Part shown: positions 6,820-8,887 of the stretch, one piece after another
Layout of the letters: each line of letters begins with the position of its first letter
Position numbering within the stretch: the first letter of the stretch is position 1
Source: a bacterium
Lineage (GTDB): Bacteria > UBA9089 > JASEGY01
NCBI GenBank assembly: GCA_030019105.1
Contig: JASEGY010000022.1
Location: 1-16,342, forward strand
Length of the DNA: 16,342 nucleotides
Direction: 5' to 3'
Translations under genes and position numbers: made by a program
The notes under the pieces: generated by a model
The model's database searches: none
What the model was told of the DNA's origin: nothing
Seen by the model: the letters and a program-made list of their open reading frames with translations, nothing else

Positions 6820-6970
6820 CTGGTAACCACCTCCTTAAAGATTTTGTCTGGTCTTTTGGTCTTCGATTTTTCTGCGTCCTACTTATTCATTGTTTCACCT
6901 GAAAATCCCTTTTTGGGATACTGCTTAGTTTTTCGGTGCTCATCCGCTACTACTTTGATTATGAAAATCT

Positions 6971-7057
6971 AATAGCACACGGATAACACGGATACTACGG
7001 ATTACCACGGATAAAATCAGTATAAATCCGTTAAATCCGTGTCATCCGTGTGCTATT
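6971..7057. repeat. Long inverted repeat with 23-bp arms
   Basis: Arms 6971-6993 and 7035-7057 (right arm ends GTCATCCGTGTGCTATT) pair with one mismatch. Further ATCCGT / ACGGAT words lie in the loop. It lies between convergently repeated elements and has no coding capacity. It looks like a dispersed hairpin repeat and could act as a bidirectional transcription terminator downstream of the CopG gene's neighbour or in the leader of the PorV-like gene. Confidence 0.7.
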
Positions 7058-7108
7058 AAAAACAATAGCCTTCATAAAAGCTAAAGGTAGTGACGCTATC
7101 CACACTCA

Positions 7109-7153
7109 GGAGTTAATCCTTTAGGATTTCATTATGAAAGGCTAAAGCCTAAA
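7109..7153. repeat. MITE-like element core, copy 2 (inverted relative to copy 1)
   Basis: GGAGTTAATCCTTTAGGATT ... AGGCTAAAGCCTAAA is the reverse complement of 4550-4598, identical except for a 4-base insertion in copy 1. The two copies bracket the PorV-like and DUF58 genes in opposite orientation. Confidence 0.75.
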
Positions 7154-7248
7154 ATCCGAAATATAGCTTGCTTTAGCTTTCGTGTGCCTCATTGATTAAA
7201 AAGAGTAGCTATTCCCACTGATTAGGTACTTTTTTCTAAATCAAAGTA

Positions 7249-7518
7249 CTAACGGGTGAGCACCAGTTTCTCTGCCAGCCACAGATTCACTAATGTTTCC
7301 GAATGCACGCCTTTGCGGCTTGCCACCCCATGAATCTGCTTTGCCAACCCATCTTCGATCTGAAAAAGGTTAATATGCCTGGTCTCTTTCGGGGAAAATT
7401 CGAGTTCAACTTCTTTCAACACGTCCTCATAGTCAGTAAGATCGTGAGTATCAAAAAAATCCTGAAATTCATCAACACTTTTAAAGCTCGGAATTGGATC
7501 TCGCTTACTTTTTGACAT
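7249..7518 (-). CDS. CopG-type (PF12441-like) antitoxin
   Basis: This 89-residue protein has the same N-terminal signature as the antitoxin at 1675-1980: SVDEFQDFFDTHDLTDYEDV (residues 14-33). A basic ribbon-helix-helix-like end follows (INLFQIEDGLAKQIHGVASR, then KGVHSETLVNLWLAEKL). ATG 7518 overlaps the end of the upstream 68-residue frame by 14 nt and has no clear Shine-Dalgarno, so its translation is probably coupled to that cistron. The overlap ties it to the Rpn-like locus rather than to the PorV-like gene 429 nt downstream. By family it should bind DNA and neutralise a toxin; the nearest candidate partner is the Rpn-like nuclease three cistrons upstream, but pairing of these two families is not established to my knowledge. 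Confidence 0.8.
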   Translation of the reverse strand: MSKSKRDPIPSFKSVDEFQDFFDTHDLTDYEDVLKEVELEFSPKETRHINLFQIEDGLAKQIHGVASRKGVHSETLVNLWLAEKLVLTR

Positions 7519-7711
7519 GTTTCTGTCGTCTTTCCCGCTTTTCTATATAGGCTTCGATTTCTTCAAGGGATAATCGCTGCAAGATATCTTCGGTAGAAAG
7601 CCCCTGCAACCGATCTTCGGTAGAAAACCGCGGCAAAACCTCTTCGGGAGTTAAAAGATTCAGATGGTCCTTTGTATAATCCCGTTTGAAATCTTCCATC
7701 GTGTACGGCAT
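7505..7711 (-). CDS. Free-standing copy of the Rpn-like C-terminal peptide (diverged, 68 aa)
   Basis: It begins MPYTMEDFKRDYTKDHLNLL, matching residues 201-220 of the Rpn-like protein with one change, then diverges. A 9-residue unit is repeated (STEDRLQGL, STEDILQRL, SLEEIEAYI), giving a longer acidic linker than in the parent, before the basic end KRERRQKHVKK. The ATG at 7711 follows GGGGGGATAGGGAATTGGT, identical to the leader of the copy at 7721-7906. It lies 9 nt after that copy's stop, which favours re-initiation. The divergence without stops or frameshifts argues that it is still under selection. The role is unknown; it could be a separate inhibitor subunit of the nuclease. Confidence 0.6.
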   Translation of the reverse strand: MPYTMEDFKRDYTKDHLNLLTPEEVLPRFSTEDRLQGLSTEDILQRLSLEEIEAYIEKRERRQKHVKK

Positions 7712-7720
7712 ACCAATTCC

Positions 7721-7906
7721 CTATCCCCCCAGCTTCGATATTGAATCTCGCTTACTTCTTGTGGCATGTGTCTGTTGCCTTTCCCGCTTTTCTAAGTAGG
7801 CTTTGATTTCTTCAGTAGAAAGCCCCTGCAACCGATCTTCGGTAGCCAACAAATTCAGATGCTCCTTTGTATAATCCCGTTTGAAATCTTCCATCGTGTA
7901 CGGCAT
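7721..7906 (-). CDS. Free-standing copy of the Rpn-like C-terminal peptide (61 aa, identical to parent)
   Basis: The ATG at 7906 opens a 61-residue frame identical to the last 61 residues of the Rpn-like protein (MPYTMEDFKRDYTKEHLNLL ... SISKLGG). It is part of a perfect 195-bp tandem duplication. It starts 9 nt after the parent's TAG, with AGGGAATTGGT before the ATG and a run of six G about 13 nt upstream. That is a weaker ribosome binding site than the GGAGGG inside the parent gene. It may be expressed by re-initiation, or may be a very young non-functional duplicate. Confidence 0.5.
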   Translation of the reverse strand: MPYTMEDFKRDYTKEHLNLLATEDRLQGLSTEEIKAYLEKRERQQTHATRSKRDSISKLGG

Positions 7907-7915
7907 ACCAATTCC

Positions 7916-8101
7916 CTATCCCCCCAGCTTCGATATTGAATCTCGCTTACTTCTTGTGGCATGTGTCTGTTGCCTTTCCCGCTTTTCTAAGTAGGCTTTG
8001 ATTTCTTCAGTAGAAAGCCCCTGCAACCGATCTTCGGTAGCCAACAAATTCAGATGCTCCTTTGTATAATCCCGTTTGAAATCTTCCATCGTGTACGGCA
8101 T
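7916..8101 (-). CDS. Putative intragenic small protein inside the Rpn-like gene
   Basis: The ATG at 8101 (codon 201 of the Rpn-like gene) is preceded by GGAGGG with a 7-nt gap, a stronger and better-spaced ribosome binding site than that of the full-length start. Translation in the same frame gives a 61-residue, highly charged peptide (MEDFKRDYTKEHLN, ATEDRLQGLSTEEIKAYLEK). In E. coli rpn genes, a small protein made from an internal start blocks the toxic full-length nuclease. The architecture here is analogous, and two extra free-standing copies of exactly this segment follow. Expression is inferred, not shown. Confidence 0.45.
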   Translation of the reverse strand: MPYTMEDFKRDYTKEHLNLLATEDRLQGLSTEEIKAYLEKRERQQTHATRSKRDSISKLGG

Positions 8102-8701
8102 ACCAATTCCCTCCAATTGATAATTCTCGAACAACTGGTTGATGATTGTGCTCATCTCCCCTGTGTGGCTCCGATACTGAGCCGCACCAGACATGACCTT
8201 CTCTCGAACCCCACTGAACAAATGCCATATCGCGTTGTGTTCTGCCACCGGCATCTCATTCAACACGAGTACTCGAATCCGATGCGCGCCCCACACCACC
8301 TCATAGACACCCGCCTGCAATCTCTCCAACCTCACTTGGTTAGCCAGCAACTGTGGGAAACGGGTGCTGACCCCATAGAGCCGAAACTGATCTTTCGGCA
8401 AAAGATCGTCCCACGAAGGGCTGGTCTGCTTACGATAATTAACGTAGTGTCCGGTCAGTTCATCAAGCGCCCAATCATCGAGCGGTTCGTGTAATGATTT
8501 ATAACTGAGGAGATTATGTGTAACTATATTATCCAACCCATCAGGCATCTGTCCCGAAAATTCACCGGTCTGCTTCTTCAGAATGACCACATCGAGTAGT
8601 TGCCGTTTGACGGAAAGGTCCTTTTCAAGCTCGACAACAAAGGGTGAGTCCGTGAAGAAGTCAGTTAGGGCTAAACCAAAGAGACGATGCCAGTCAATCA
8701 T
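7916..8701 (-). CDS. Rpn/PD-(D/E)XK-like nuclease family protein
   Basis: This 261-residue protein is counted from ATG 8701 (MIDWHRLFGLALTDFFTDSP). The frame continues upstream to 8740, but those 13 codons fall in a hairpin repeat, so I prefer 8701. The N-terminal two-thirds resembles Rpn/YhgA-type putative recombination-promoting nucleases, and similar proteins are common in cyanobacteria and planctomycetes: FVVELEKDLSVKRQLLDVVI (21-40) with E24/E26 and D37 as metal-ligand candidates, then NLLSYKSLHEPLDDWALDEL (63-82) with K68. The usual E-x-K appears as S66-Y-K68, so activity is uncertain. Residues 201-261 form a charged tail that begins with an internal start. The last 12 residues appear to derive from a CopG-gene start. 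It is the first cistron of a four-gene run. Confidence 0.7.
   Translation of the reverse strand: MIDWHRLFGLALTDFFTDSPFVVELEKDLSVKRQLLDVVILKKQTGEFSGQMPDGLDNIVTHNLLSYKSLHEPLDDWALDELTGHYVNYRKQTSPSWDDLLPKDQFRLYGVSTRFPQLLANQVRLERLQAGVYEVVWGAHRIRVLVLNEMPVAEHNAIWHLFSGVREKVMSGAAQYRSHTGEMSTIINQLFENYQLEGIGMPYTMEDFKRDYTKEHLNLLATEDRLQGLSTEEIKAYLEKRERQQTHATRSKRDSISKLGG
8109..8114 (-). promoter_or_regulatory. Internal Shine-Dalgarno in the Rpn-like gene
   Basis: GGAGGG on the minus strand, 7 nt before the in-frame ATG at 8101. It is lost in the downstream copies, whose leaders carry GGATAGGGAATTGGT instead. Confidence 0.55.
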
Positions 8702-8887
8702 AATTTCTCTGGTTCCCACGCTCTGCGTGGGAACCCCCATCCGGGACGCTCTGCGTCATAGTCTGCATCCCCACGCAGAGATGGGGACGAGGGGTAGGGT
8801 CGAAAATCACAGCTACCCGACCTCAATTTCTAACCGCACAAGTCGAAAAATCCTGAAAAATCTGCGTTTATCTGCGGCCTATTTATT
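8702..8887. repeat. Paired hairpin repeats between the giant gene and the Rpn-like gene
   Basis: Hairpin 1 is GGTTCCCACGC (8711-8721) / GCGTGGGAACC (8725-8735) with a 3-nt loop. Hairpin 2 pairs CCCCAT (8735-8740) with ATGGGG (8781-8786) and CTCTGCGT (8749-8756) with ACGCAGAG (8773-8780). Both share the ACGCAGAG word. This dispersed repeat lies just before the Rpn-like start and could serve as a terminator for the giant gene. No gene is seen in the remaining 8787-8887. Confidence 0.65.

Follow-up and report, generated by a model that had tools for sequence, protein, structure and literature searches.

The stretch of DNA analysed here (the window) covers positions 1 to 16,342 of contig JASEGY010000022.1 from a bacterial genome (assembly GCA_030019105.1, lineage UBA9089), 16,342 nucleotides (nt) in all. 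Between positions 7249 and 8701 its minus strand carries a gene for a putative nuclease whose variable C-terminal tail has a conserved start codon and ribosome-binding site of its own, followed by two stand-alone frames that repeat the same tail. On balance, the probable explanation is an Rpn-like nuclease with an intragenic antitoxin, from a separate and unannotated family, whose antitoxin segment has been copied in tandem.

The full-length gene (7916-8701; all coordinates of the locus are on the minus strand) encodes 261 amino acids (aa) and combines a putative PD-(D/E)XK nuclease domain (residues 1-200, 8102-8701), with candidate catalytic residues E26, D37, K68 and E81, and the variable tail. 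The longest frame opens at 8740, and homologues begin at MIDWHR, which corresponds to 8701. Counted from the ATG at 8701, codon 201 is an in-frame ATG at 8101, and the Shine-Dalgarno (SD) sequence GGAGGG at 8114-8109 ends 7 nt upstream of it. From this codon runs the intragenic frame, copy 1 (7916-8101, 61 aa). Copy 2 (7721-7906, 61 aa) and copy 3 (7505-7711, 68 aa) are open frames, each beginning 9 nt past the preceding TAG. Copy 3 is overlapped by 14 nt by a CopG/BrnA-type antitoxin gene (7249-7518), which matches PF12441. The internal ATG with its SD sequence, the two further frames with their 9-nt spacing and the overlapping CopG-type gene had been proposed in a first-pass annotation made from the letters of the sequence, and all were recovered. 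Its statement that exactly the inner segment occurs twice more holds for copy 2, which equals copy 1 in 61/61 residues with zero nucleotide changes, and fails for copy 3, which is diverged, shares 41 of 50 aligned residues and contains more repeat units. Tail units in the window's family are about nine residues long.

Under a shift of 195 nt, positions 8112-7863 and 7917-7668 are identical over 250 nt, far above the chance expectation, giving a perfect tandem repeat stretch from 8112 to 7668. The repeat unit extends beyond the tail stop and takes in the first part of the CopG gene. Copies 1 and 2 end in RSKRDSIS, and the pieces concerned (7930-7956 in copy 1, 7735-7761 in copy 2) resemble the CopG start, MSKSKRDPIPS, with 85% identity over 27 nt in the CopG frame. 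Since these ends are related to the first CopG codons, the comparison indicates that the ancestral locus was a nuclease gene with its end overlapping a CopG gene, and that the duplicated piece reached from the inner ribosome-binding site into CopG. The partial protein P0122 (71 residues, from a related genome) has an inner tail with the same CopG-like end.

Across the related genes compared, the internal start is strongly conserved at the DNA level. The site of codon 201 is ATG in 41 and GTG in 2 of the 43 genes scored (window included), with an SD-like word upstream in 42 of them (L032 is without one); these genes are related by descent, and neither these nor the following figures are independent trials. 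The Glu preceding the start is encoded by GAG in 30/37 genes (16.05 expected from the same genes) and the Gly by GGA or GGG in 25/32 (15.59 expected from the same genes), and genes without the Glu often keep the purine run, as does L122 with GGAGGG. The codon count omits two distinct genes, the tail-less L014 and the L070 gene (head MWKN), the latter having its internal ATG and SD scored in the analysis of anti-SD pairing. Mean pairing was -9.9 kcal/mol at 44 internal starts; the means for 1532 control codons and for 256 further in-frame ATG or GTG codons were -2.3 and -2.6, respectively. In the window, the internal start was at -9.8 kcal/mol, copies 2 and 3 at -8.4 and the nuclease's own start at -4.2. 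In an alignment of 50 proteins, the internal-start position holds Met in 45 rows and Val in the other 5.

Stand-alone tails also occur elsewhere. The search for related loci that the first-pass annotation had recommended found seven besides the window in which a complete gene is followed by a tail frame with its own ATG and SD-like site. L020 and L070 are two loci of a single Planctomycetota genome, and L065 (two copies), L104, L122, L083 (cut by the contig end) and L135 (distant subfamily) come from the order of Thiomargarita. Left out were most stretches fetched for short tail frames (fragments, contig-end frames and tails with no recognised adjacent nuclease) as well as L138-L140, tail frames of the distant subfamily. 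For L020, L104 and the window, the SD site marks the start of the shared stretch, which begins about 60 nt earlier for L065 and L135. Between inner and stand-alone copies, nonsynonymous divergence (dN) was below synonymous divergence (dS) for L065 (all three pairs), L070, L104 and L122, and likewise for E. coli rpnE/ypaA, with Fisher p across the significant cases from 2e-12 to 0.014. This test covered five other loci (four positive, and L020 without a significant difference, p 0.12), the window and rpnE/ypaA, with L083 and L135 left out; such pairwise values average both branches, carry no multiple-test correction and may be influenced by gene conversion. Free-standing tail copies therefore recur in relatives and, judging from these comparisons, appear mostly kept as coding frames.

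Decay of the small frames in related genomes had been named beforehand as an observation that would count against a function, and relatives hold decayed copies as well as intact ones: L071 is without the ATG, and pieces of further genes are present at L119, L105, L109 and L106. A tail-like frame lies within 700 nt of 8 out of 38 distinct genes having at least 300 nt downstream, in a sample partly picked for short frames; among the eight, one (L023/L071) has lost the start and the frame of L106 is a piece of another gene. The subset from the nuclease-led search gave 2/12 genes with a downstream tail-like frame (L020, L023). The tail itself is sparsely distributed, being found in 1 of the 246 Planctomycetota genomes drawn, 2 of 19 in the window's phylum and 27 of 42 in the order of Thiomargarita. 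A search of plasmids with the small frame and one of phages with the full gene found no match. A protein search with the small frames returned four predicted proteins, namely two of the window itself, P0122 and P0124 (86 aa); such frames may be rarely annotated, or the protein search may be too insensitive.

The full-length protein has 1965 homologues at E<=0.001 and no match to any Pfam or NCBIfam model. PF04754, the Rpn model, is absent from the window protein and from the best 25 of 41 weak families listed for 50 homologues. A profile comparison (hhalign) with four E. coli Rpn proteins gave a probability of 0.1 and no detectable similarity, and PF04754 occurs at 6 places on five contigs of the window's genome, the window gene not among them. 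The family profile matched no PDB sequence at E<=10, and PADLOC gave no match for the window protein, its other matches being scattered and weak. The label "Rpn-like" from the first-pass annotation is thus apt for the architecture and not for the sequence: every sequence test made sets the window family apart from Rpn, and the shared architecture may reflect convergence or very old common descent. As a separate observation, the PF04754 genes of the same genome (L153-L158) include one, L153, with four-residue REQG units and an internal MPTIADVLREEG, as in E. coli RpnS.

The structure model of the window protein resembles PD-(D/E)XK nucleases, with matches that include Bse634I, SgrAI and BsaWI. 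D37, E26 and E81 are present in 50/50 alignment rows and K68 in 49/50. A permuted active site, PDX21-53KX12-13E, is reported for CCGG-family restriction enzymes (PMC4652773). The conserved candidate motif here is D37-x30-K68-x12-E81, with Leu36 where the CCGG motif has Pro. All 45 genes of the fetched loci have Ser or Thr at K-2 and Glu at K+13 (a count that drops L100, which is without the motif), whereas the distant relatives show the reverse pattern, with Glu at K-2 and no acid at K+13, in 9/9. By these alignments, the window family has a conserved, permuted candidate active site, which resembles that of Cfr10I, Bse634I and NgoMIV, including the Glu on the next helix (K-x12-E). The tail is 32-115 residues long (median 74 in 50 homologues), variable and modelled as helical, in a poor model (mean pLDDT, the predicted local distance difference test, 66; pTM, the predicted template modelling score, 0.29). 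The window tail did not match the RpnA small-protein structure, whereas ypaA does.

Several relatives differ in make-up. L014, on contig C542 of the window's own genome, is a paralogous nuclease frame that stops just short of the tail, ending in FENYSS; this tail-less version lies 38 nt from the contig end. L117 contains three complete family nuclease genes in tandem with differing numbers of tail units. The distant subfamily (L098, L099, L101, L135, L138, L140), from the order of Thiomargarita, has a canonical ExK site and similar repeat tails, and the two members scanned gave no appreciable match to Pfam or NCBIfam.

The closest studied systems are the Rpn proteins of E. coli. According to Zhong et al. 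(PMC10327210), RpnL nucleases are inhibited by RpnS, the product of an internal start, which bears out what the first-pass annotation had stated. The same text describes RpnS genes that stand on their own, one (ypaA) behind rpnE and another, of independent origin, behind rpnC in certain strains, and states that repeat number tunes the match of RpnL and RpnS. The further claim that no such locus had been described is therefore wrong: a nuclease gene with a stand-alone copy of its inner segment is an already known arrangement. Both RpnE-ypaA and RpnC/RpnC-S share with the window a nuclease-type gene, an internal start and a free copy that reproduces exactly the inner segment. In MG1655, ypaA begins 12 nt after rpnE and its repeat, like that of the window, opens within the SD sequence (AAAAGGAGAG); the RefSeq entry lists ypaA as a pseudogene and RpnE as inactive. 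RpnL/RpnS (COG5464) likewise have an N-terminal PD-(D/E)XK-type domain, which is predicted here, and a hypervariable helical tail behind a conserved internal start, known here from sequence. The differences are the protein family, by the tests described above, the lack of a PF04754 match in the window protein, the absence of a CopG neighbour at RpnE-ypaA, units of four rather than about nine residues, and one stand-alone copy rather than two (genomes matched by a ypaA query, 5371 in all, had two such places at most). What is new here is the family, its permuted candidate active site, the pair of free copies at one locus (also in L065) and the carried-over CopG piece.

By analogy with these systems, the tail probably inhibits the nuclease. 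The full-length protein would be a PD-(D/E)XK-type nuclease, perhaps with an anti-phage role, and its tail would also be made separately as a small protein from the conserved internal start. This small protein would be made in excess over the full-length protein, because the internal site looks stronger than the gene's own start site, and, as in RpnL/RpnS, would bind the tail of the full-length protein and keep the nuclease off. A tandem duplication of about 195 nt, from the internal SD to the CopG start, would have freed two more tail cistrons, each coupled over 9 nt to the stop codon before it. The identical copy 2 would add inhibitor; copy 3 is a variant with a higher number of units which, to go by the E. 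coli repeat experiment, may fail to match the present nuclease. Translation, nuclease activity, inhibition and any benefit of the extra copies are what we infer. A wider version, which we consider rather unlikely, is that a second nuclease family independently evolved (or kept beyond recognition) a gene-within-gene antitoxin, and that several lineages made free-cistron arrays with differing repeat numbers as a store of dosage and specificity, in which identical copies raise the inhibitor-to-toxin ratio and diverged ones neutralise sister nucleases or former toxin versions.

Literature searches for intragenic antitoxins found descriptions for Rpn proteins only. If the tail is inhibitory, the principle would extend to a nuclease family without a domain model (the 1965 homologues at E<=0.001), and its repeated copying-out, always from around the ribosome-binding site, would be a natural experiment on a nested gene escaping its host gene. 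The stand-alone copies offer ready test pairs for repeat number setting specificity.

Alternatively, and with clearly less than even probability, the inner start could be functional while the window's free frames are only a side product of slippage or unequal recombination at the repeat-rich end of a gene beside CopG, frames that stay open because the duplication is recent and in phase. The 195 nt are divisible by three, copies 1 and 2 are identical over the 250-nt shifted stretch, the unit includes part of the neighbouring gene, as expected of a duplication blind to gene borders, and relatives hold decayed copies. Constraint between window copies 2 and 3 was not significant (p 0.12), which also speaks for this reading: copy 2 is too recent and copy 3 too little diverged for visible selection, so that non-functional duplication is a serious rival. 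However, stand-alone tails recur independently in other lineages with start and SD mostly kept, dN is below dS in four of the five other loci tested, and copy 3, old enough to differ, is nevertheless open with a start and an SD-like site.

It is also conceivable, if quite improbable, that the separately made tail helps the nuclease to assemble and that extra copies set the stoichiometry. A variable tail modelled as helical would suit this, and helper subunits from internal starts are known, such as Cas11d, a small subunit whose start lies inside cas10d (cited in PMC10327210). Against it, the closest studied architecture is inhibitory (same source), and variable repeats suit a specificity surface. 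An assembly artefact of the metagenome contig is very improbable. The draft state of the genome, with its 1053 contigs, and the identity of copies 1 and 2 speak for it, but copy 3 differs and similar arrays occur in other assemblies. Short-read assemblers, moreover, usually collapse such repeats rather than create them.

The CopG gene, which has the nuclease locus as its upstream neighbour, scores 45 bits against PF12441 (cut-off 28), and the window's genome has 14 CopG matches above the cut-off, in other places too. Its candidacy as a general partner of the nuclease was rejected, two CopG queries finding no relative (phmmer E<=1) in the 5380 frames from 134 other loci, several of them overlapping one another; because of this absence, the gene is a bystander. 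The idea of copy 3 as an immunity protein for the paralogue L006 found no support, its dS being 0.21 from copy 2 and 1.23 from the tail of L006.

A second CopG-type gene (PF12441, 37.4 bits) lies at 1675-1980 on the minus strand of the window, flanked by what we take to be polysaccharide-export-like and chain-length-like genes. An element resembling a miniature inverted-repeat transposable element, with 26-nt inverted ends, occupies 6935-7264 (minus strand); the CopG gene next to copy 3 takes its final codons and stop from the end of this element. The element's flanks in the window are GAGAAACT/GAAAAACT. Upstream of the paralogue L006 lies a shorter copy (853-1043 of that locus) with a perfect 8-nt repeat, AGGCCGCT, and a 22-nt piece of the element's end has 55 matches in the genome with up to 3 mismatches.
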